Source: Clostridiales bacterium
GTDB taxonomy: Bacteria; Bacillota; Clostridia; Peptostreptococcales; Anaerovoracaceae
Reading direction: 5' to 3'
DNA: 42,536 nucleotides
Assembly: GCA_015058275.1 (NCBI GenBank)
Contig: SVCQ01000020.1
Coordinates: 1-42,536 of the forward strand
A model generated the notes under the pieces. That model did no database searches, had not been told where the DNA came from, and saw nothing but the letters and a program-made list of their open reading frames with translations. Below are positions 16,777 through 36,894 of this stretch, piece by piece. Positions within the stretch are counted from its first letter, which is position 1, and every line of letters begins with the position of its first letter. The position numbers and the translations under genes are program-made.

Positions 16777-18060
16777 ATGGAAGACTTAAGAAACAACCAG
16801 ACACAGACAGACAGCAAAAAGACGCTCGGGCTGCAGATATCCGATGCGGACTATTATAATGTGAACGCTCAGGCCACTCCGGAGCCGGAAGCTCCAAGAC
16901 CGCATGCCGGTAAGAAGAGGAAGAGCAAAAATGCAGTCATTCCGTTCCTGCTTGGCATGCTGTCATGCCTTGTGGTCCTGGTCCTTGTGACTGAGGTCTT
17001 CGGTCTCGGCAAGCTGATCCCGAAGAAGACATATGATTATTACCGCGATCTCAACAGCAATTACGGCAAGTACTATGAGATCATGAAGATGATAGAGGAG
17101 GACCCTATCGCAAAGGCAAAGCCTGAGGAACTGAGCGACGAGCACCTCAAGGAGCTGCTGGCTTCGACCGGGGATCCGTACGCGGAGTACTATACAGCCG
17201 AAGAGTATAAGGATTTCGCCAAGAAATATATGTCGGATTATGTCGGCATTGGAGTAGGTGTCGTGGAGGAGGACGGAGAGATCATCGTCACGGAGGTCTT
17301 CGAGGGATCCCCCGCCGAGAATGACGGGATACAGATCGGAGACGCTATCGTCAGGATAAACGGCAAAGAGCCTGCGGATATAGACGAAGCGATATTGATA
17401 CTCGGCGGAGAGCCGGGGACGCCGGTCAGCGTCACTGTGAGAAGGAACGGCGAGGAGATCGTCATCAAAACAAACAGAGCCAGAGTCGAACAGGACTCTG
17501 TTGTATACGCGGCACTCGATGATCATCCTGATACCGGTGTGATAAGGATAGCCAGATTCATCAAGGGCACCTCGGATGAATTCAAGGATGCGGTCAGATC
17601 GCTTGAGGGCGACGGCTGCAGCAAGTACATCATTGACCTTCGCAGCAACGGAGGCGGACTGACGGATGAGAGCATCAAAGTCGCCGACTACCTGCTTCCT
17701 GCGTGCAGGATAATGAGCGAGAATTACAAGAACGGCAAGGAGACCGTATACAATTCAAAGCCTGATACTGCAGGCATACATTATGTGGTGCTGGTCGACG
17801 GCAATACGGCAAGCGCTTCGGAGATACTCACTGCCGCCATACAGGACAACAAAGGGGGGACCATCATAGGCTCTAAGACATACGGCAAGGGAGTCACCCA
17901 GAGGACCCACAAGTTTGAGGACGGCTCGGCGATCAAGATAACCGAGACTGAGTATTTCCGTCCGAGCGGCGATAAGGTCAACGGCGTGGGCATCACACCT
18001 GATGTAGAGGCCGCGGATGACGAGGTGCGTGAGGCTGCGATCAGGGAGCTTGAGAAGTGA
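16777..18060 (+). CDS. ctpA: C-terminal processing protease, S41 family (CtpA)
   Basis: This 427-residue membrane-anchored protease has a cytoplasmic N-terminal stretch of about 48 residues and one transmembrane helix (about 49-73). A PDZ domain (about 150-235) and an S41 catalytic domain follow. The Ser-Lys dyad is Ser346 in NTASASE and Lys371 in SKTYGKG, with the 25-residue spacing typical of CtpB. Such enzymes trim or activate cell-wall hydrolases and signalling proteins outside the membrane, which fits the M23 hydrolase two genes upstream. The ATG begins on the base after the recJ stop. Confidence 0.94.
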   Translation: MEDLRNNQTQTDSKKTLGLQISDADYYNVNAQATPEPEAPRPHAGKKRKSKNAVIPFLLGMLSCLVVLVLVTEVFGLGKLIPKKTYDYYRDLNSNYGKYYEIMKMIEEDPIAKAKPEELSDEHLKELLASTGDPYAEYYTAEEYKDFAKKYMSDYVGIGVGVVEEDGEIIVTEVFEGSPAENDGIQIGDAIVRINGKEPADIDEAILILGGEPGTPVSVTVRRNGEEIVIKTNRARVEQDSVVYAALDDHPDTGVIRIARFIKGTSDEFKDAVRSLEGDGCSKYIIDLRSNGGGLTDESIKVADYLLPACRIMSENYKNGKETVYNSKPDTAGIHYVVLVDGNTASASEILTAAIQDNKGGTIIGSKTYGKGVTQRTHKFEDGSAIKITETEYFRPSGDKVNGVGITPDVEAADDEVREAAIRELEK

Positions 18061-25104: not shown

Positions 25105-26016
25105 GTGAATTTACAGACTACAGATACGGTCCTGATGGTTAGACCGGCGGCATTCGGATATAACGAAGAGACTGCCGTGAACAATGCCTTCCAGCAGAAG
25201 GGCACAGGGACGGATATACAGGCTGAGGCCAGAAGAGAATCCGATGCATACATCGGTCTCCTTGAGAGCAGCGGTATCAATGTGGTCGCCGCAGAGGATA
25301 CAGCAGAGCCTCATACGCCGGATTCAGTATTCCCCAACAACTGGTTCTCCACCCATGACGACGGGACGCTGGTCCTGTATCCGATGTTTGCGGAGAACAG
25401 GCGGCTTGAGAGAAAGCCTGCGGTGCTTGAAGCGATAAAGGCGAACTTCGATGTCAAAAGGATCGTTGACCTCACTCATTATGAAGAGGAAGGGAAGTTC
25501 CTTGAGGGCACGGGCTCCATGGTCCTTGACAGGGCCGGCAGGATAGTCTACGCATGCAGATCGCCCAGGACGAATGAAGAGGTGCTGAGGGACTTCTGCG
25601 AAAGCCTCGGATATTCACCGCTTATGTTCGATGCGTCTGATGCAGGCGGAAGACAGATCTACCACACGAATGTCATGATGCATATCGGAAGTGATACGGC
25701 GGTGGTCTGCATGGAGTCTATAGGTGATGCAGAAGAGAGGGCAAGGGTAAGGTCTTCTCTTGAGGAGAGCGGCAGGACGATAGTTGAGATCACGCATGGC
25801 CAGATGGAGCACTTCGCGGGTAACATGCTTGAGCTCCGTAGCAGCCGGGGCGAAGCCTGCCTCGTCATGTCGAAGACCGCACGCATCGCTTTATCCGAAG
25901 ACCAGCTCAGCGTACTCGGCTCCGGCAGGAGACTGATAACTCCGGATCTTGACTGCATCGAGATGAACGGAGGGGGCTCTGCAAGATGCATGCTCGCTGA
26001 ACTCTTCGCAAAATGA
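25105..26016 (+). CDS. ctlX: Citrulline hydrolase CtlX-like protein (guanidino-group-modifying/pentein family)
   Basis: This 303-residue pentein-fold enzyme has the wording of the CtlX/arginine-deiminase-related family. It shows PDSVFPNNWFSTHDDG near residue 71, LYPM, EGTGSMVLDR, and the histidine segment YHTNVMMHIG. The nucleophilic cysteine is near the end in GGGSARCM (Cys295). CtlX members are reported to hydrolyse citrulline to ornithine, ammonia and CO2; other close relatives act on dimethylarginine. The start is GTG at 25105, fixed by AAAGGAGAT. It is the first gene beyond the island and is followed by an amino acid symporter. Confidence 0.85.
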   Translation: MNLQTTDTVLMVRPAAFGYNEETAVNNAFQQKGTGTDIQAEARRESDAYIGLLESSGINVVAAEDTAEPHTPDSVFPNNWFSTHDDGTLVLYPMFAENRRLERKPAVLEAIKANFDVKRIVDLTHYEEEGKFLEGTGSMVLDRAGRIVYACRSPRTNEEVLRDFCESLGYSPLMFDASDAGGRQIYHTNVMMHIGSDTAVVCMESIGDAEERARVRSSLEESGRTIVEITHGQMEHFAGNMLELRSSRGEACLVMSKTARIALSEDQLSVLGSGRRLITPDLDCIEMNGGGSARCMLAELFAK

Positions 26017-27830: not shown

Positions 27831-29696
27831 ATGACCAAGAGGGAACAGGAGAAATTACAGGCCATTCAGGCCGGGATAATGACGGGCTCGATAGCTGACC
27901 AAAAGGCGTGGAAGTTCGTCAGAGAGATGAATTCCTGCACAGAGGAGAAGCTCGGCAAAATCGCTCTTATCGATGGCAGACGCAAGTATACCTACAGCCA
28001 GTTCTTCCGCTGCTGGGACAGATACGCGGAGGTCTTTGCCGCGCTTGGCATTACCGAGCATAATGGCTCGAGGGTCGGTATGATCGGAAATGTATCGGCG
28101 GAGTGCATTATCGCGTTTTATGCTCTCAATATGCTGGGGGTATCGGTATCGATGCTGCCTGTCGAGGAGAGCCGCAACGAGAAGCGTTGGTGCAAGACCA
28201 TCCGCAAGGAGGGCATCACAGATCTCGTTATCGCGGGGACCTACGCGTGGCCGGGACAGCTGCGCATCATCGCAGACCATGGAGAGGAGCTCGGCATCCG
28301 CAAGGCCATCGTCCTGCCTACATACGTGGACGGGCCTTATGCCGCTCCTATAGAGAGGCTGCAGGCAAAGTTCTATGAGCCGATCTACAGGCTCTCTCCG
28401 GACGTGCTGGTCATGGACGAGCTATTTGACGAATATGAGACTACGGCCTTTAGCGAGGGCCGCAAAAAGAACGACGAGGCTGCCGTAATAACCCACACAT
28501 CGGGGACGACTAAGGGCATACACAAGCCTATACCTCTGTCGGATCTGGCTATAAACAGCGCTGTCCTGAGCATGATGAGGCATCCGGCTTTCCAGCAGTT
28601 CTCCGGAGGCGGCACTATCGCTCTTACAAAGGAGATGACTGCCGCGTACTGCCTGGTCAATATGGTGCACGCGCCTCTGGCCCTCGGTCTTACAAATGTG
28701 ATCATACCTATGGGAGCATTCAATCCGAACTTCCATAAGGCCATAAAGAAATACAAGATCAGTATCCTGATGACAAGCGCTCAGCAGTTCGAGGCATGGA
28801 TGGAATGCCCGGCCAAGACGGATTTTGACTTCTCGAGTCTTGACTTCGTGACATTCGGCGGATCATATGTATCGCCTGATACACTCAATAAGATCAATAG
28901 CTTTATCCGCAAACACAAGGGCCATGCAAAGGCCTTCAGCGGATACGGTCTGTCGGAGGTCGGAGGAGCATGCATTATGCCTGACCCGGGCAGTGAGACG
29001 GCCGATACCATCGGAAGGCCTCTGCCGGGAGTCGAAGTCCGCATCTACGATGAGGATAAGGGCGTATACTACAAGCTCGAGGACGGAGCTCACACAGGGG
29101 GACTCTTCATATCCTCTCCGTCGATCAGCAGCGGCCGCATAGGCGACACTGTGTTCTTCGAGACGGAGGAGATAGACGGCAAACCGTATATCTGCACCTA
29201 CGATCTTGTCAGCACGAGCGGTGACGGGACTCTGACATACGCGGGCAGGATGAACCGCTTCTTTGCCAATAATGAAGGCGTGGAATTCAACGCGGGCATC
29301 ATAGAGACGGCCCTGTCCAAACAGGATGGCATAGAGGCCTGCGCGGTAGTACCTGAATACGACAAGAGCGTGTACGATACGATACCGGTGCTCTACGTAC
29401 AGACAGAGGGCGGCGGAGCCCGGAGGATAGTCAGAAACGCGCTGCTGCAGGCATTTGAGGATCGCGATAAGTTCGATACCGATCAGCTGCCAAAGCAATG
29501 CGTCATAACGGACAATATACCGTATAACGCCACCGGCAAGGTCGACATCAATCTGATCACAAAGGGCTATGTTGACGGCACAGCATATTCTATAGAGGGC
29601 GTCGTAAGGGACGGCCAGCTGACAGACATCGATTTCAGACGTATTGAACGCGAAAGCAAGAGCAGCGGCATGGGCTGCGATCAGCTCTTCGGTTAG
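27831..29696 (+). CDS. Adenylate-forming enzyme (AMP-binding, class I), paralog A
   Basis: The 621-residue protein belongs to the acyl-CoA synthetase/NRPS-adenylation superfamily. The P-loop is TSGTTKGIHKP at residue 223, one residue longer than the common TSGTTGxPKG. Further motifs are SGYGLSE (A5), TYDLVS (A7), GRMNRFFANNEGVEF (A8) and NATGKVD (A10) with the catalytic Lys570. It should activate a carboxylic acid as an AMP ester; the acceptor is unknown and no carrier domain is attached. It is clearly related, including its N-terminal DQKAWKFVREMNS stretch, to the gene at 34520 and to the C-terminal part of the gene at 31805. The start has GGAG seven bases upstream. Confidence 0.87.
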   Translation: MTKREQEKLQAIQAGIMTGSIADQKAWKFVREMNSCTEEKLGKIALIDGRRKYTYSQFFRCWDRYAEVFAALGITEHNGSRVGMIGNVSAECIIAFYALNMLGVSVSMLPVEESRNEKRWCKTIRKEGITDLVIAGTYAWPGQLRIIADHGEELGIRKAIVLPTYVDGPYAAPIERLQAKFYEPIYRLSPDVLVMDELFDEYETTAFSEGRKKNDEAAVITHTSGTTKGIHKPIPLSDLAINSAVLSMMRHPAFQQFSGGGTIALTKEMTAAYCLVNMVHAPLALGLTNVIIPMGAFNPNFHKAIKKYKISILMTSAQQFEAWMECPAKTDFDFSSLDFVTFGGSYVSPDTLNKINSFIRKHKGHAKAFSGYGLSEVGGACIMPDPGSETADTIGRPLPGVEVRIYDEDKGVYYKLEDGAHTGGLFISSPSISSGRIGDTVFFETEEIDGKPYICTYDLVSTSGDGTLTYAGRMNRFFANNEGVEFNAGIIETALSKQDGIEACAVVPEYDKSVYDTIPVLYVQTEGGGARRIVRNALLQAFEDRDKFDTDQLPKQCVITDNIPYNATGKVDINLITKGYVDGTAYSIEGVVRDGQLTDIDFRRIERESKSSGMGCDQLFG

Positions 29697-29719
29697 TATT
29701 ACCAAAAGGAGGATATGAT

Positions 29720-30007
29720 ATGTATAAGGGATTTTTAGAGGACCTGGAGTATGTAGCGGGTCTTTTCTTTAAGCCGTTTGAGGATTGCTGCGCAGGAGAA
29801 GACAGCGAAGACGAGGATAAAGGCAAAGAGCATAATTGCGGTCTTGGCTGCGACGGATTCGCCTGCTGCAGGGATTCCGATGATGATGACGAGGATGATG
29901 AAGAGGACGAACAGTCCGGACCTTCAATCATGTCAGAGGGACCGGTCGCGGATCTCCTGAAATGCCTCTTCGAAGCATCTGATACGGATTACGATTACGA
30001 GGATTAA
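29720..30007 (+). CDS. Small Cys/Asp-rich acidic protein A, function unknown
   Basis: This 95-residue protein is strongly acidic. Its centre reads CDGFACCRD followed by a tract of 14 residues that is nearly all Asp and Glu. Other cysteines occur as a CC pair near residue 23 and in the sequence before the motif. The motif C-D-x3-C-[C/F]-R-D plus Asp tract recurs twice in the protein at 34135, also beside an adenylating enzyme. AAAGGAGG precedes the ATG by seven bases, so it is surely translated. It could be a metal-binding protein, a substrate/carrier, or a modified-peptide precursor. I recognise no family. Confidence 0.75.
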   Translation: MYKGFLEDLEYVAGLFFKPFEDCCAGEDSEDEDKGKEHNCGLGCDGFACCRDSDDDDEDDEEDEQSGPSIMSEGPVADLLKCLFEASDTDYDYED

Positions 30008-30012
30008 TTTAA

Positions 30013-31776
30013 ATGAATACAGACACTCATCTGCTCAATAAGATGTTCAGGGGGGTTCTGATCACGAACGCCATCAGCATTGCGGCAGGTATCGTCTGTG
30101 TAATGATCGACGGTATCATTACCGGACAGTTCCTCGGAGCTGACGCCGTAGCGGCCTCGGGCCTGCTGCATCCTGTTGTCATGGTGGTAAACCTCCTGGG
30201 AGGACTGCTGGGCGGGGTAGGCATCATGTGTACCCGCTATCTGGGTAAGGCCCGGCTCGACAGGGTAAATCAGGTATTCAGCGTAGCGGTCATAGCAGGC
30301 TTTACCCTGACTGCGGCCTTTATGGTACTGATATACGCGTTCGCGCCGGCCATAGGCTCAGCGCTGGGATCAAAGACGGGTTCTCAGGAGATCGTCAGGA
30401 TGATCAGCGACTATTTGAGGGGCCTGGTAGTGGGCATGATGTTCATGCGATTCACCGTAATGCTCGCCGGACTGATGATGCTCGACAATGACAAGAACTG
30501 CAGCATGATCTCTATGGGAGTGGTGTTTGTTACGGATATCACCTTTGACCTTGCCAATGTGCTGGTCTTCCACGGAGGCATGCGCGGCATGGCGCTTGCG
30601 ACGTCATTCAGCTACATCTGCGGATTTATGGTCATACTGAATCACTACCGCAGGAAAGACAGGATCATCCACTTCACGACGAAGGGTCTCAGACTCAAAG
30701 ACCTCGGAGATATATTCCTGAGAGGCATGCCGAACGCCATCAATATGGGATGCTCGGCGCTCAGGATGCTCGCCTTCAATGCACTGCTTTTGTCCATAGC
30801 GGACAAGACGGCGGTTGCAGGCCTCTCTATCGCCAATAGCGCGTTTACGTTCATAGTATCTCTGGTACTGGGCATGTTCATCACAGCCTCGATCCTCAGC
30901 AGCCTCTATTACAGTGAGGAGGACAGGCGAGGTCTGGAGCACGTGATAACGCTTTCGGTAAAGATCACCATCATACTGTTCATCGGTGTGGGACTGCTGA
31001 TCGCGATATTCCCAAAGCCTGTAGCGATGCTGTTTGTAAGACCGGATGCGGTCGATGCCGTCGGCCAGGGGGCCAGGTTTATGAGATTCTGGGCCATACA
31101 GTTCCTGTTCATGGCTGTCAGCTTCCCGATCAGCGGTACCTACCAGGGTACGGGACGTCTCAGACAGAATTATTTTATCGATATAATGCGTGAGGGAGTT
31201 CTGCCGATAGTCTGCGTGACGGCGCTCGGTAAGGCCTTCGGGCTCCGCGGAGCCGAAGTGGGCTTTGCGCTCGCGGGTCTGCTGACACTTGTTATGCTCT
31301 ATCTGGTACCGACCGTGTGCAACAGGAAATTCCCTCTCAGGGCCAAGGACTTCCTCATACTCTCCGATGACTTCGGAGCGAAGCCGGAGGAGCTCTACGA
31401 GGCTTCCATGCACGATATGGATGAGGTGATAAAGGTCTCCGAGGATGTAAGACAGTTCTGCCTCGACAGAGGTACGGGCGCGGGCAGAGCTATGATGATG
31501 GCTCTCTTCGTAGAGGAAATGGCCGGCAATACGATCGCATACGGATATCGGGAGGGACAGCACGGGACTGTTGACCTGAGGTTCGTCCTCCACGACGGTA
31601 CGGGGACGATCAGGCTCAGAGATGACGGCAGACCTTTTGATCCGGTGATGTGGCTTGAAAAGAACTCTACCGAGGATCCGGCGTCGGGACTCGGTATACG
31701 CGTAGTCACAGGGCTTGCAAAGCAGGTCAATTACATGACATCAATGGAGATGAACAATCTCACGATAACCTTATAA
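30013..31776 (+). CDS. MATE-family efflux transporter fused to an RsbW-like HATPase domain
   Basis: Residues 1 to about 445 form a twelve-helix MATE antiporter (MIDGIITGQFLGADAVAASG at the start). From about 465 to 587 there is an anti-sigma/GHKL-type ATPase domain. Its N-box is EEMAGNTIAYGY (Glu501, Asn506), G1 is DDGRPFDP at 537-544 and G2 is GLGI at 559-564, all apparently intact. Ordinary MATE proteins are about 450 residues, and such a tail is not part of the basic fold. It could couple transport to ATP binding or to protein phosphorylation. The gene starts five bases after the small acidic protein gene. Confidence 0.9.
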   Translation: MNTDTHLLNKMFRGVLITNAISIAAGIVCVMIDGIITGQFLGADAVAASGLLHPVVMVVNLLGGLLGGVGIMCTRYLGKARLDRVNQVFSVAVIAGFTLTAAFMVLIYAFAPAIGSALGSKTGSQEIVRMISDYLRGLVVGMMFMRFTVMLAGLMMLDNDKNCSMISMGVVFVTDITFDLANVLVFHGGMRGMALATSFSYICGFMVILNHYRRKDRIIHFTTKGLRLKDLGDIFLRGMPNAINMGCSALRMLAFNALLLSIADKTAVAGLSIANSAFTFIVSLVLGMFITASILSSLYYSEEDRRGLEHVITLSVKITIILFIGVGLLIAIFPKPVAMLFVRPDAVDAVGQGARFMRFWAIQFLFMAVSFPISGTYQGTGRLRQNYFIDIMREGVLPIVCVTALGKAFGLRGAEVGFALAGLLTLVMLYLVPTVCNRKFPLRAKDFLILSDDFGAKPEELYEASMHDMDEVIKVSEDVRQFCLDRGTGAGRAMMMALFVEEMAGNTIAYGYREGQHGTVDLRFVLHDGTGTIRLRDDGRPFDPVMWLEKNSTEDPASGLGIRVVTGLAKQVNYMTSMEMNNLTITL

Positions 31777-31804
31777 ACCAAAAGGGACGAAAAGGAGACG
31801 ACAA

Positions 31805-33601
31805 ATGGCAATTCAGACAGATATTTGTGGAGCCGATACCATCAGAAGAGAATTGGTGCGCATCGCTATAGAGCGCATCCAGGGGATGAGGTTCGGCAGA
31901 GCCAAGGAGAGAAAACGCCCTGAGCCTGAGAAGCCGAGTCCTAAGACCATATATGAGGTCGAGGACATACTCAACAACCCGTATATGAACAGGGAAGAGG
32001 TCCCTCTCGCCATGGACATTTTTAAACCGGTCGTACCAGAGGAAACGGAGCTTCCGGTCATAGTGTATATACATGGCGGCGGTCTCGTAATGGGAGACCA
32101 CAAAATGGCGAGAGACTACGGAAGGGCTCTTGCAAGCAGGGGCTATCTGGTATTCTCGATCGAATACAGGCTGGCGCCGAGGGCCAATTCATGCGAGCAG
32201 CTTGACGATGTCTGCGCGGGCATGGACTACGTCGGACGCAGGCTGGTCGATTTCAATGTAGATTTCTGGAGGATGTTCCTTACCGCCGAGAGCGCGGGGG
32301 CCTTCCTCGCGATATATGTGGCTGCCATGAAGAGGTCCGTGAAGCTTCAGGAGGCTATCGGATATGAGCCGACACGCATGTCGTTTAAGGCGCTGGGACT
32401 TCACGGCGGCATGTACTATACGGACAGGGATGACCCTATCGGCTGGGTGCTCAAGGACCAGTTCTTCGGAGAGAAGGTAGCCGATGACAACTTCATGCAG
32501 TATCTTGATCCGGAGCACGAGGAGATAATCAAAAATCTGCCGCCTGTATTCATGACCACGAGCAGGGGAGACTTCCTTAACAATTACAGCCTGATGTATC
32601 ACGATGCTATCAAGAAGGCCGGACGCTCGTCACATCTTATGTACTTCGGGGATGAGGATCTCGGGCATGCCTTCGCTGCCATGGAGCCTTACCGCGCTGC
32701 CAGCATCGATGCTCTGGACAGGATGACGGATTACTTCGAGGAGTCGGTAGAGCGTTATAAGAAGGATCTCAGGAGGATCAATAAAGAGCAGCTGGAGCTT
32801 GCCGGTATAAAGGCGCGTATCGAAGACGGCAGCATCACCGGACAGAAGAGCTGGCAGTTCATCAAGGAACTCAATTCGTACAGCAAGGACGGGCTCGACA
32901 GCGTCGCTCTCAAGGACTGCAAGAGAGAGTATACATACAGACAGATGTTCCGCATGTGGGAGAGCTACGCGGAGGTCTTCTCGGCACTGGACATCACAGC
33001 AAAGAATGATTCGAAGGTCGGGCTGCTCGGAACGGCCGCTTCAGAGACGGTGATCGCATACTACGCTCTCAACATGACAGGAGCTTCCGTGTCCATGATC
33101 AGCAGGAAAGATGTCCGCGGCATCGATAAATGGAAGAAGCTGATCGAAAAGGAAGGCATCACCGATCTGGTGGTCAACGACGTGAAGACAGGACCTGGGA
33201 TCGTCAGAGAGCTCATCGATGCCAAAGAGGAGCTCGGAATACGAAATATCATAATGCTCCATGCGCCTGTCGAGAACAGGCCGGGTGTCTGTGACAGGAG
33301 ATACATACAAAAACAGAACAGGAGAGAGTTCAGGAGGATAAAAGGTCTGCTGATGATGGAGAAGCTGCTCGAAGAGCATGAGGCATATCCTGTATCATAC
33401 AGCGACAAAACGCCTTCGGACAGCGAACTCAATGAGGCTGCATGCGTACTGCTGAGAGACGAAGGCTCCGCAGAGCTCAGCGGCAGGGAGATCACCGTCA
33501 ACACCGGAGATGTGATGAGGTCCGGCGTGATGACAGACGACGTACATATAACGCTCGCGCTGGGAGGCAGGATCGTGTTTGAGTTGACAAAAAACGCATA
33601 G
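31805..33601 (+). CDS. Alpha/beta hydrolase (HSL type) fused to a truncated adenylation domain
   Basis: Residues 60-310 are a hormone-sensitive-lipase-type esterase. The oxyanion motif HGGG is at 90-93, nucleophile Ser163 in AESAG (usual GDSAG), Asp256 and His288. Residues 330-598 match the N-terminal half of the two adenylating enzymes nearby (DGSITGQKSWQFIKELNS, then YYALNMTGASVSM). Where those have the P-loop TSGT, this protein jumps from SYSDKTPSDSE straight to LNEAAC, a loss of about 20 residues. It then ends soon after, lacking A5-A10. The adenylation part should therefore be inactive and may serve binding or pairing. GAAAAGGAGACG precedes the ATG. Confidence 0.85.
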   Translation: MAIQTDICGADTIRRELVRIAIERIQGMRFGRAKERKRPEPEKPSPKTIYEVEDILNNPYMNREEVPLAMDIFKPVVPEETELPVIVYIHGGGLVMGDHKMARDYGRALASRGYLVFSIEYRLAPRANSCEQLDDVCAGMDYVGRRLVDFNVDFWRMFLTAESAGAFLAIYVAAMKRSVKLQEAIGYEPTRMSFKALGLHGGMYYTDRDDPIGWVLKDQFFGEKVADDNFMQYLDPEHEEIIKNLPPVFMTTSRGDFLNNYSLMYHDAIKKAGRSSHLMYFGDEDLGHAFAAMEPYRAASIDALDRMTDYFEESVERYKKDLRRINKEQLELAGIKARIEDGSITGQKSWQFIKELNSYSKDGLDSVALKDCKREYTYRQMFRMWESYAEVFSALDITAKNDSKVGLLGTAASETVIAYYALNMTGASVSMISRKDVRGIDKWKKLIEKEGITDLVVNDVKTGPGIVRELIDAKEELGIRNIIMLHAPVENRPGVCDRRYIQKQNRREFRRIKGLLMMEKLLEEHEAYPVSYSDKTPSDSELNEAACVLLRDEGSAELSGREITVNTGDVMRSGVMTDDVHITLALGGRIVFELTKNA

Positions 33602-33616
33602 GATGATAGATTTAGT

Positions 33617-33635
33617 TAGGTACTTAAATATCCTA
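33617..33635. promoter_or_regulatory. Candidate operator upstream of the MarR gene
   Basis: TAGG-TACTTAAATA-TCCTA is an imperfect AT-rich inverted repeat about 30 bases before the marR start. Its size and position suit self-regulation by MarR. The promoter boxes themselves are not clear. Confidence 0.35.
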
Positions 33636-33665
33636 TGTTGATAGATGATAAGGAGGAATGCCGCA

Positions 33666-34133
33666 ATGAAAAAGACAATAGAAGAACAGCTCTTTGAGCA
33701 GATAATGAAGGCGCCTCGCGCAGTCAGAAAGTCTGCATTTGAGGCTATATTCGATGATGATGAGGACAAGGGATTCATCTTCCCGTTCCGCCGCCCGGTA
33801 TTCGCAAGAGACAGACTTCTCACAGCGGTAAACGATTATGAGGGCGGAGTCAGACAGAAGACTCTCACAAAGGACCTCGACATCAGCCCTGCTGCCGTAT
33901 CCGAGCTCGTATCCAAGCTCGAGAACGACGGTTACGTAGAGAGAAAGGTCGACCAGAGCGACAAGAGAGCTACTCTCATCACTCTCACAGAGCTCGGAGC
34001 TGCCAGAGCGGCTGAGCTTGCGGACGACAAGAACGACAGATACGAAAAGACCTTCAAGGCTCTTACAGCCAAGGAGAGAGAACAGCTGCTGAAGCTCCTC
34101 GAGAAGCTCACAGCTGATGAAGAGGAGGACTAG
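33666..34133 (+). CDS. MarR-family transcriptional regulator
   Basis: The protein is about 155 residues, with the MarR winged helix. The recognition part is KTLTKDLDISPAAVSELVSKLENDGYVER and the wing is DKRATLITLT, followed by the dimer helices. The N-terminal region has an unusual acidic patch (FDDDEDKGF). MarR proteins are usually repressors released by phenolic or fatty-acid-like ligands. The frame is open from 33645, but the AAGGAGG at 33650-33656 fits the ATG at 33666. It heads the run marR, Asp/Lys protein, adenylating enzyme, membrane protein, and probably controls it. Confidence 0.88.
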   Translation: MKKTIEEQLFEQIMKAPRAVRKSAFEAIFDDDEDKGFIFPFRRPVFARDRLLTAVNDYEGGVRQKTLTKDLDISPAAVSELVSKLENDGYVERKVDQSDKRATLITLTELGAARAAELADDKNDRYEKTFKALTAKEREQLLKLLEKLTADEEED

Positions 34134-34134
34134 T

Positions 34135-34519
<385 letters not shown>

Positions 34520-34542
<23 letters not shown>

Positions 34543-36340
34543 TCAGAAATGCTGGCAGTATATCAGGGCGCTCAATTCGGCAGACGATGAGCGCCTTGAT
34601 TCTATTGCTCTTACGGACGGAACAAGTGAGTATTCGTACAGGCGCATGTTCCGCAAATGGCAGCTCTACGCGGAGGTGTTCTCGGCCCTCGAGATCTGCG
34701 GTGACAACAGATCGAGAGCAGGCCTTACGGGCATACCGTCAGCGGAGACTGTCATAGCTTTTTATGCTCTCAATATGACGGGAACTTCGGTATCCATGAT
34801 ACACAGCGCAGACCTCAGGGATGAGAAGAGATTCGGACGCATGATCAGGGAGGAGGGCATTACCGATCTGGTGCTTGCGGACAACCTGCTGGATCCGGAG
34901 CTCCTGGAGCGCATACTCAGAGATCATAAGGCGCTGGGACTTCGCAGGGTAGTGGTGCTCCGGATACCAAAAAATGAAGAGGGGCTGTCCGACGAGGACA
35001 AGCTGCGCCTCAGGATGATGCAGAGGAGGATGCGCGAGTTCAAGGGCATACTCTTTATGGATGAGCTGTGCAGGCGCTATGCCGCATATGAGATAGCTAC
35101 GGGATACAAAAATGACGAGGCCGCTGTGATAGCCCATACCTCCGGAACCGTGAACGGGATACACAAACCCGTACCGCTTTCGGATAGAGGACTCAACGAG
35201 GCGGCGGCAAGCCTCCTTGATGATGAGAGGTTCAGTGAGCTTCGGGGCAGAGCCGTGAGCGCTCTATTCCTGGATATGTCGTCGGCATACGCCATGACGG
35301 ATATGGTGCATCTTAGCTTTGCCTTTGGAGGTACGCTTGTAGCTGTGCCGGGAGTCAGGTATATGGAGGACATTGCTGAGGTGCTTGAGAGGCATAAGGT
35401 GAACGTGCTCTTTGCCACGGGTGCCTACATGAACGCTATGATGAAGCTCAAGCAAAAGCCTGACCTGTCGGCCCTTGAGTTCGTATTCGTCGGTGGAAGC
35501 CGCATGTCCGCGTACTCAAAAGGCAAATACGACGGCTTCCTCGCGGCTTGCGGCTCGAAGGCGAGAGTCACGGCCGGATACGGACTTTCGGAAACGGCCG
35601 GAGCATGCATACTGTCTGACCCCGACAGAGAGGACGATTCTATGGGCAGACCTCTTGCGGGAGTGAGGGTCAAACTGTATGATGAGGATGATGATAAGTT
35701 CTATGACCTGTCCGACGGGCCGAGGAGGGGAGTGCTGTATATATCCTCACCTTCGGTGAGCGGAGGGCGCATAGACGGGAGGCCTTTCTTTGACCTCGAG
35801 GATACAGGCGAGGGCATGTACCTCAACACCTACGATATGGTGGATGCCGGAGCCGATGGATATCTGAGATACGCAGGGCGCATGAACAGATACTTCGTCA
35901 ACAATGAGGGTATACGCTTTGACGCGGGCCTGATCGAGGCTGCGTTGTCAGCTCAGCCCGGTATAGACAGCTGCTGCATCACTCCGGGATACGACAAGAC
36001 CATGCATGACACCATACCGGTGCTCAACGCGGCGGTCTCCGGCAGCGACGGATCAGCTACGGAAGTTATCGAAGATGCTCTAAGGGCTGTCTTTATCGAA
36101 GGAGGCCTGATCAGGGATACAAATCTCCCGGGCCAGTGCCGGATAGCGGACAGGCTCCCGATGAGCGATACAGGCAAGCCTGACGCGCGCCGCATAGCGG
36201 GAGGCGAAGTTAAGGGCAGACTATACCGCATCGATCCAAAGCGCTCTGAGGGAGTGCTGAGGGATATAGAACTCGTACCGTACAGGGACGCGCCCGGACT
36301 TCGCTCGGGACTCCCTGATGAACTCGAAAGAAGTGAATGA
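34520..36340 (+). CDS. Adenylate-forming enzyme (AMP-binding, class I), paralog B
   Basis: At 606 residues this is a second complete member of the same subfamily as the gene at 27831. The P-loop is TSGTVNGIHKP at residue 207, A5 is AGYGLSE, A7 is TYDMVD, A8 is GRMNRYFVNNEGIRF, and A10 is DTGKPD with Lys553. Differences in the P-loop and pocket suggest a different acid from paralog A. The start overlaps the end of the Asp/Lys-rich protein gene and the stop overlaps the membrane protein gene (ATGA), so the three are translated together. No carrier or condensation domain is present. Confidence 0.87.
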
Positions 36341-36894
36341 CAATGAACGCTCCTGTAATAGCAAATCTGATCCTGATAATACTTGAGATCATCGGGATTT
36401 CAAAAAGCCGCAGCCGCGGTTTGATACTGCTGATTTTCTATACTCAGCTGTCCAATATCGTGACGCTGATATCGTCGGTCGCGTATCTCATAAGCAGCGG
36501 CTCGCCTCTTACGGTCGCGCTGAGATATCTCAGCACCGTTATGCTCGCCATGACGGTCCTGATAACGCTCTTCGTGCTCATACCGGCCGGCATGGGCTTT
36601 GCGGATATGATGCTTTCGGGCAACGGACTTTACCATCACACCCTCTGCCCGGCGATATCGATCGCATCATACTTCCTGTGGGAGCAGCATTCGTCGCAGT
36701 GGTTCATTCCGGTCATAGTGACCCTGATCTACGGCATTGTCATGCTGTACCTCAATTACGCGAAGATCATTGAAGGCCCGTATCCGTTCTTCAGAGTTTA
36801 TGAACAGAGCAAAAAAGCCTCCGTACTGTGGATGATCGGGCTGACTGCCTTCATATCACTGATATCACTGGCTGTTGTCTTCCTGGCTAGGTGA
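36337..36894 (+). CDS. Membrane protein resembling the FAR-17a/AIG1 (Pr6Pr) family
   Basis: This 185-residue protein has about six transmembrane helices. The order YTQLSNIVTLISSVAYL, then LRYLSTVMLAMTVLITLFVL, then LYHHTLCPAISIASYFLWE resembles the FAR-17a/AIG1-like membrane proteins. In animal AIG1 and ADTRP a membrane threonine and a histidine hydrolyse fatty-acid esters of hydroxy fatty acids. Here a Thr in FYTQLSN and a His in LYHHTLCP are at plausible places, but equivalence is an inference. The ATG overlaps the stop of paralog B by four bases. A terminator inside its 3' end closes the operon. Confidence 0.6.
   Translation: MTMNAPVIANLILIILEIIGISKSRSRGLILLIFYTQLSNIVTLISSVAYLISSGSPLTVALRYLSTVMLAMTVLITLFVLIPAGMGFADMMLSGNGLYHHTLCPAISIASYFLWEQHSSQWFIPVIVTLIYGIVMLYLNYAKIIEGPYPFFRVYEQSKKASVLWMIGLTAFISLISLAVVFLAR

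Follow-up and report, generated by a model that had tools for sequence, protein, structure and literature searches.

A clostridial gene cluster that pairs ANL adenylate-forming enzymes with small motif proteins, which may act as scaffolds

Gene content of the locus

The window, by which we mean the whole stretch of 42,536 nucleotides that was analysed, is contig C5 of a Clostridiales genome of 1.82 Mb that is 83% complete. On one strand it carries, in this order, the genes for enzyme 1, SmpA, a MATE-HATPase protein, an esterase joined to a truncated enzyme, a MarR regulator, SmpB, enzyme 2 and a membrane protein, SmpA and SmpB being our names for the two small proteins:

27831..29696, + strand: ANL adenylate-forming enzyme 1, 621 aa, C-terminus SSGMGCDQLFG (Pfam PF00501, E 4e-40; one of 5 related enzymes in a starred set)
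29720..30007, + strand: SmpA, 95 aa, with a conserved N-terminus MYKGF.., a Cys motif, an acidic linker and a putative docking C-terminal peptide (8 sequences, all adjoining an enzyme or enzyme fragment)
29849..29875, + strand: motif CDGFACCRD, the single copy in SmpA (motif search)
29951..30004, + strand: C-terminal peptide DLLKCLFEASDTDYDYED (itself a seed of the 18-residue matrix, with which it scores 59 bits; profile E 2.7e-14)
30013..31776, + strand: MATE exporter with a fused HATPase_c_2 domain (Pfam)
31805..33601, + strand: HSL-type esterase in fusion with a truncated member of the enzyme family, a decayed third copy (Pfam, alignment)
33645..34133, + strand: MarR-type regulator (Pfam)
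34135..34542, + strand: SmpB, 135 aa, with a MICE..RG N-terminus, two Cys motifs, a poly-Asp block and a Lys/Ala/Pro block (7 sequences, profile)
34222..34248, + strand: motif CDGLPCFRD, first in SmpB (motif search)
34294..34320, + strand: motif CDKAPCFRD, second in SmpB (motif search)
34520..36340, + strand: ANL adenylate-forming enzyme 2, 606 aa (Pfam PF00501, E 1.5e-35; one of 6 related enzymes in a starred set)
36337..36894, + strand: small membrane protein with no Pfam match (homologues in loci L041, L042 and L079)

A reading of this DNA from the sequence alone had described two complete, related adenylating enzymes, each with an adjoining small motif protein, and this arrangement was confirmed: both frames are open, the two products are 42% identical, and both match the Pfam AMP-binding family. 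SmpA starts 23 nt downstream of enzyme 1 with AAGGAGG just before it, and SmpB overlaps enzyme 2 by 23 nt; a start of SmpB at 34117 is less likely because GAGGAGG immediately precedes 34135. The esterase named in the sequence-only reading is indeed present and of HSL type, but it does not stand alone, being joined to the truncated third enzyme. The joined frame aligns at 59% over 604 columns to the first 606 of the 941 residues of an intact relative, L031, and its enzyme part is without the P-loop and the C-terminal half. Pfam gave no support to the name AIG1-like for the product of 36337-36894. Elsewhere in the window, a CtlX-type citrulline hydrolase (25105-26016, above the NCBIfam cut-off) is followed by an SDF symporter.

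The enzymes and their family

The source genome holds six complete copies of the enzyme and one truncated copy, four of the complete ones lying outside the window. The enzymes have the AMP-binding fold; the matches listed in the fold searches (50 each) are ANL enzymes and, in one search, esterases. Their catalytic residues are intact, with the A3 (P-loop) Lys, A5 Glu, A7 Asp and A8 Arg each present in 110 of 110 enzymes and the A10 Lys in 109 of 109. The position of the A8 Lys is occupied by Asn in 109 of 110. The A4 position, aligned to FDLS of DltA, is acidic in 98 of 110 (Asp in 75, Glu in 23), and is Asn or Lys in two enzymes of the L013 type; an acidic A4 residue holds the alpha-amine in the amino-acid-activating subgroup (DltA and NRPS A domains). 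The acidic A4 residue would predict amino acids as substrates, and the enzymes would perform acyl or aminoacyl activation. Compared with known members of the ANL superfamily (4-coumarate:CoA ligase 5bsw, DltA 7r27, amide bond synthetases), they differ in the exchange of the A8 Lys for Asn and are further set apart by the acidic A4 residue, by their tails and by their small partners. In a tree of the enzymes with at least 480 aligned positions, short or broken ones therefore being left out, the paralogue classes keep apart across species, which argues for separate roles.

A contig scan with the six enzyme paralogues of the source genome as queries returned 66 loci, of which 64 were kept; two from Xanthomonas (Gammaproteobacteria; L088 and L089, 22-27% identity) were excluded from every count. 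The loci come mostly from gut and rumen bacteria, among them Lachnospiraceae, Oscillospiraceae, Coriobacteriaceae, Erysipelotrichia and Chloroflexi, and carry one to five ANL enzymes. Few genomes have the enzyme, and its distribution is patchy (5 of 47 genus genomes, 5 of 296 family genomes), with multiple copies where it is found. Several loci derive from one genome (L031, L064 and L079; L042 and G041; L027 and L061; L025, L041 and L062; others too) and are thus not independent genomes, and since all were retrieved via the enzyme, proximity to the enzyme is partly built in.

An HSL-type esterase was found in 53 of 67 loci, fused in 43 of them. Transporters of the MATE type occur in 18 of the 67, of the MFS_2 type in 10 and of either type in 20, and a Met-rich small protein in 16. 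By eye, ORFs with a C-terminus resembling that of the MarR-type regulator of the window precede SmpB in L042 and L079. The neighbours may make and export a small product, for which the MATE protein is a candidate exporter. The joining of esterase and ligase would fit the release and activation of an acid as well as a dissociated assembly line, and favours neither.

Further arrangements were seen around other members of the family. A sister operon in the source genome (L012, contig C36, 7327-15225) encodes an enzyme with a Met-rich tail, a second enzyme, a Met-rich 144-aa protein and an esterase-enzyme ending in DFDFED, and related operons recur across many of the loci compared. On contig C14 of the same genome (L013, 2369-7227), an enzyme paralogue lies by a LanM-like lanthionine synthetase and a peptide of 75-76 aa ending in ICDGVEIC. 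Five loci (L024, L025, L026, L041, L048) hold an LPG_synthase_C plus GNAT protein, identified by Pfam in L041, or its BLAST relative, and five from Coriobacteriaceae/Atopobiaceae (L034, L045, L046, L047, L060) have a second Gln/Ala-rich protein in common (L046 4123-4860, for example). NRPS-like genes or a phosphopantetheinyl transferase adjoin the enzymes in L054 (1-6561, an ORF named by eye, and 17397-17975), L033 (12580-15618) and L050 (14650-17055).

SmpA and SmpB adjoin the enzymes and share a Cys motif

The small proteins had been suggested to be partners of the enzyme, and this is well supported: each of the 15 homologues found (8 SmpA and 7 SmpB, those of the window included) adjoins an enzyme of the family or an enzyme fragment. 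Every SmpB lies directly upstream of an enzyme (7 of 7), a broken one in L025; SmpA adjoins a broken enzyme in L041, and in G041 its enzyme is cut at the end of the stretch compared. Homologues without an adenylating neighbour, which would have spoken against a partnership, were looked for, and none was found. Searches free of enzyme anchoring (SmpA in the genus, SmpB in the family, the C-terminal peptide in the class) yielded few positive genomes: SmpA was detected in 4 of 47 genus genomes and SmpB in 3 of 296 family genomes, in each case all within the five enzyme genomes. A fifth SmpA match among the 47 genus genomes (G012, E 0.005) has stops inside and unlike gene surroundings, and was not counted. 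In nine chosen enzyme genomes, the SmpB profile found matches in six.

In the eight SmpA sequences, that of the window included, an N-terminus MYKGF..D..YV..L and the Cys motif are followed by an acidic linker, and the C-terminus resembles DIMKCMFDASDIDYDYED. The seven SmpB sequences have the N-terminus MICE..RG, one to three Cys motifs, an Asp block and a Lys/Ala/Pro block, without the C-terminal peptide of SmpA. SmpB is a block polyampholyte, the charge over 20 residues being -11 in the Asp block and +7 in the Lys block. The Cys motif occurs in all 8 SmpA and 7 SmpB; single Cys positions vary, and in L026 the motif is replaced by GMGCD repeats in the middle of SmpA. In the DNA form searched, it was found three times in the 1.82 Mb genome, each time inside the window (reversed control, 0), and the pattern was not found near the four enzymes outside the window and elsewhere in that genome. 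Chance at the given composition of the proteins does not explain the motif: composition shuffles produced it in 8 of 200,000 cases for SmpA and produced two copies in 0 of 200,000 for SmpB.

The concern that conservation might reside in the Asp tract alone was not borne out, as the N-terminus, the motif and, in SmpA, the C-terminal peptide are also conserved. In G032, moreover, the SmpB profile hits the motif of SmpA (E 1.4e-4), so that the shared motif exceeds an Asp run. Pairwise codon changes in the first SmpB motif were 83 synonymous and 37 nonsynonymous. The most conserved stretch of SmpA, which the sequence-only reading did not list, is its C-terminal 18 residues; across six sequences the corresponding codons showed 101 synonymous and 49 nonsynonymous pairwise changes, compared with 66 and 72 in the N-terminal 18 codons, where purifying selection is less clear.

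No family model fits the small proteins. At E 0.01, neither Pfam nor NCBIfam gave a match for SmpA or SmpB of the window, carrier (PP-binding) models included, and such NCBIfam hits as the small proteins did give are weak and lie far under the cut-off. Other identities were considered and set aside. PADLOC, searched for a defence system, gave no match for four window proteins and one weak match for the esterase-enzyme of the source genome (E 0.001). As to a phage origin, the enzymes hit PHROGs families of unknown function (E 1e-8 to 1e-12); SmpA has a weak PHROGs match (E 0.009), which falls in its acidic stretch.

The C-terminal peptide occurs free or fused to an enzyme

In many of the enzymes the C-terminus is a long tail, rich in Met/Pro/Gln or with Cys repeats, whose last residues resemble those of SmpA. 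Fifteen seed ends of this kind (type A) were made into an 18-position matrix, which was used to score 6016 ORFs in the 67 loci; the seeds, as well as a profile (A5) holding most of the peptides later matched, make these hits in-sample. Type A peptides were found in 24 loci (17 to 61 bits), one per locus even with up to five enzymes, and are carried by 13 free small proteins, 10 enzyme tails and, in L039, an ORF cut by the contig end. ORFs above 10 bits numbered 29 of the 6016; 28 of them lie inside an enzyme ORF or at most 66 nt from one, and the 29th (L041) lies by an enzyme fragment. Five of the 29 are ends of a second kind (type B), and the first unrelated ORF scored 3.4 bits. Cys-containing units of the form G-x-[GA]-C occur up to 11 times in fused tails. 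Cys is missing altogether from 5 of the 24 proteins or tails that bear the peptide.

The type B peptide (..NGRKSIDFDFED or ..ARDIDFDIED, that is, DFDFED/DFDIED) mostly ends the esterase-enzyme of a sister operon with two or three enzymes. It makes up 23 of 47 assignments, made by eye, and 5 of the 23 exceed 10 bits with the type A matrix. Neither type was assigned in 20 of the 67 loci, some owing to contig ends, and the locus lists behind this tally were entered by hand.

Whole-genome scans of 29 handles, which identical coordinates reduce to 27 distinct genomes, gave a strong type A match in 23, one per genome except in G712, whose two matches lie on the contigs of the enzyme loci L025 and L041; of the remaining enzyme genomes, one gave a weak match and three gave none. 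The copy at 29951..30004 was the sole one that the profile scan found in the source genome, and among 391 genomes of the class the peptide was clear in the source genome only, with two further weak partial matches. These class- and whole-genome scans thus add that no clear copies of the peptide were found elsewhere. A general sorting tag was also considered: the pattern DY.YED-stop gave 8 matches in the 296 family genomes (reversed control, 4), 3 of them SmpA, and of the other five, two read as C-termini of unrelated proteins and three gave no such ORF.

Structure prediction for a fused relative from L057 gave a confident enzyme part and a tail (residues 586-826) predicted to be disordered, with pLDDT mostly below 50 and weak predicted helices at 671-693 and 807-815; the C-terminal peptide was not docked on the enzyme in this model. 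In the model of the esterase-enzyme from the source genome, pLDDT is below 50 in the linker (932-997) and confidence climbs toward the C-terminal end, averaging 77 over the last six residues, of which two are drawn as strand or bridge; this rise hints at docking of the predicted C-terminus. SmpA and SmpB are likewise probably disordered, the fused tail of L057 being the one for which disorder was predicted.

The small proteins as putative scaffolds, and alternatives

We propose, at about an even chance of being right, that the small proteins serve the ANL enzymes as dedicated scaffolds or adaptors without catalysis of their own, which gather these enzymes and the esterase. SmpA would be the free version of the tail that other family members carry on the enzyme: a linker that is disordered and repetitive, often contains G-x-[GA]-C units or is rich in Met/Pro/Gln or acidic, and is closed by a peptide. 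The conserved C-terminal peptide, amphipathic and aromatic-acidic, would dock on a partner, and one peptide per cluster would pull one to five ANL enzymes and the esterase into one assembly; SmpB would be a second polyampholyte, lacking the peptide, with its Asp and Lys blocks and its tie to enzyme 2. The occurrence of linker plus C-terminal peptide once per cluster, free or fused, suits scaffolds or docking tails above carriers or precursors. One point against a scaffold is that some tails retain Cys units, for which a mere spacer would have no use.

An alternative is that the small protein is an acceptor, on whose Cys (or Lys) the enzyme would load an acid or amino acid after adenylating it, making it a phosphopantetheine-free carrier or a modified product. 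The presence of the Cys motif in every SmpA and SmpB and the many G-x-[GA]-C units of the tails favour this idea, and the exchange of the A8 Lys, a residue we take to be tied to the second half-reaction, would mean that this half-reaction may be unusual. We nevertheless regard it as unlikely: the Lys block is confined to SmpB, and the substrate or carrier suggested by the sequence-only reading is left unsupported because of the Cys-free members (5 of 24) and because no carrier domain was found in SmpA or SmpB of the window; in 10 of 24 loci, moreover, the peptide is part of the enzyme.

Tails and Met-rich small proteins might also coat a granule or droplet in the manner of phasins and anchor the enzymes to a storage body. 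Three enzyme tails match Phasin_2 weakly (E 0.06, 0.13 and 2.3), all under the curated cut-off, and the Lys/Ala/Pro block of the L027 SmpB has a weak histone-H1-like match (E 0.005), a make-up that also occurs in histone-like phasins. As PHA synthase (PF07167) was found in 0 of 11 enzyme genomes, the source genome being 83% complete, with a positive Caulobacter control, we consider this role quite improbable. It is very unlikely that SmpA and SmpB are ribosomal peptide precursors which are processed and exported, with the enzyme and esterase as tailoring enzymes. The LanM-like synthetase and 75-76-aa peptide by one enzyme paralogue of the source genome, the variable repeat number in L026 and the adjoining exporter would fit such precursors, but the C-terminus is the most conserved end of SmpA, the same sequence ends a large enzyme in 10 loci, and no RiPP enzyme was noticed in the gene maps of the window, L024 and L026. 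That the peptide is a cargo signal for a protein shell, as of a microcompartment, is barely credible, for although it ends a predicted-disordered tail as in CsoS2, the BMC shell family PF00936 is missing in 13 of 15 enzyme genomes, the source genome included (the BMC genes of G711 and G713 lie on contigs other than the tagged locus), and each cluster has a single tagged protein instead of many cargos.

Discussion

The nearest working analogues of the proposed scaffold are CsoS2 and the docking peptides of NRPS systems. CsoS2 is described, in the part of the source consulted, as the disordered repetitive scaffold of alpha-carboxysomes, the mutation of whose repeat cysteines left growth in air intact (PMC11365436). 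The likeness would lie in disorder, Cys-containing repeats and a conserved C-terminal peptide; in contrast, most of the genomes compared gave no shell proteins, a cluster of ANL enzymes takes the place of the partner, the tail is sometimes fused to the enzyme, and SmpA of the window has a single motif and no repeats, with disorder predicted for the L057 tail. NRPS/PKS subunits, according to the portion of a second source consulted, have disordered C-terminal docking ends that are short linear motifs of fewer than 15 residues (PMC9113145), to which the C-terminal peptide, of 18 residues here, is alike in that it is proposed to join activating-enzyme subunits, whereas NRPS-like genes occur at few of our loci. 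In such NRPS docking pairs the acceptor is a beta-hairpin domain. In the open-access library searched, under the terms used, no title or abstract opening among the papers listed describes such a system.

More broadly, the loci may represent a class of shell-less assembly in anaerobes of the gut and rumen that belong to several phyla. Stand-alone ANL enzymes and an esterase would be gathered on a disordered hub (a free gene or a tail) and would form a dissociated, carrier-free line whose acyl or aminoacyl product is exported; this generalization is tentative and open to doubt. If true, bacteria would have a further way of organising metabolic enzymes, one that is simple, portable and needs no shell, with the same peptide, free in some species and fused in others, as a natural experiment. 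The findings flag a rumen and gut family of activating enzymes which probably produces or consumes an uncharacterised metabolite and for which the peptide offers a test handle.
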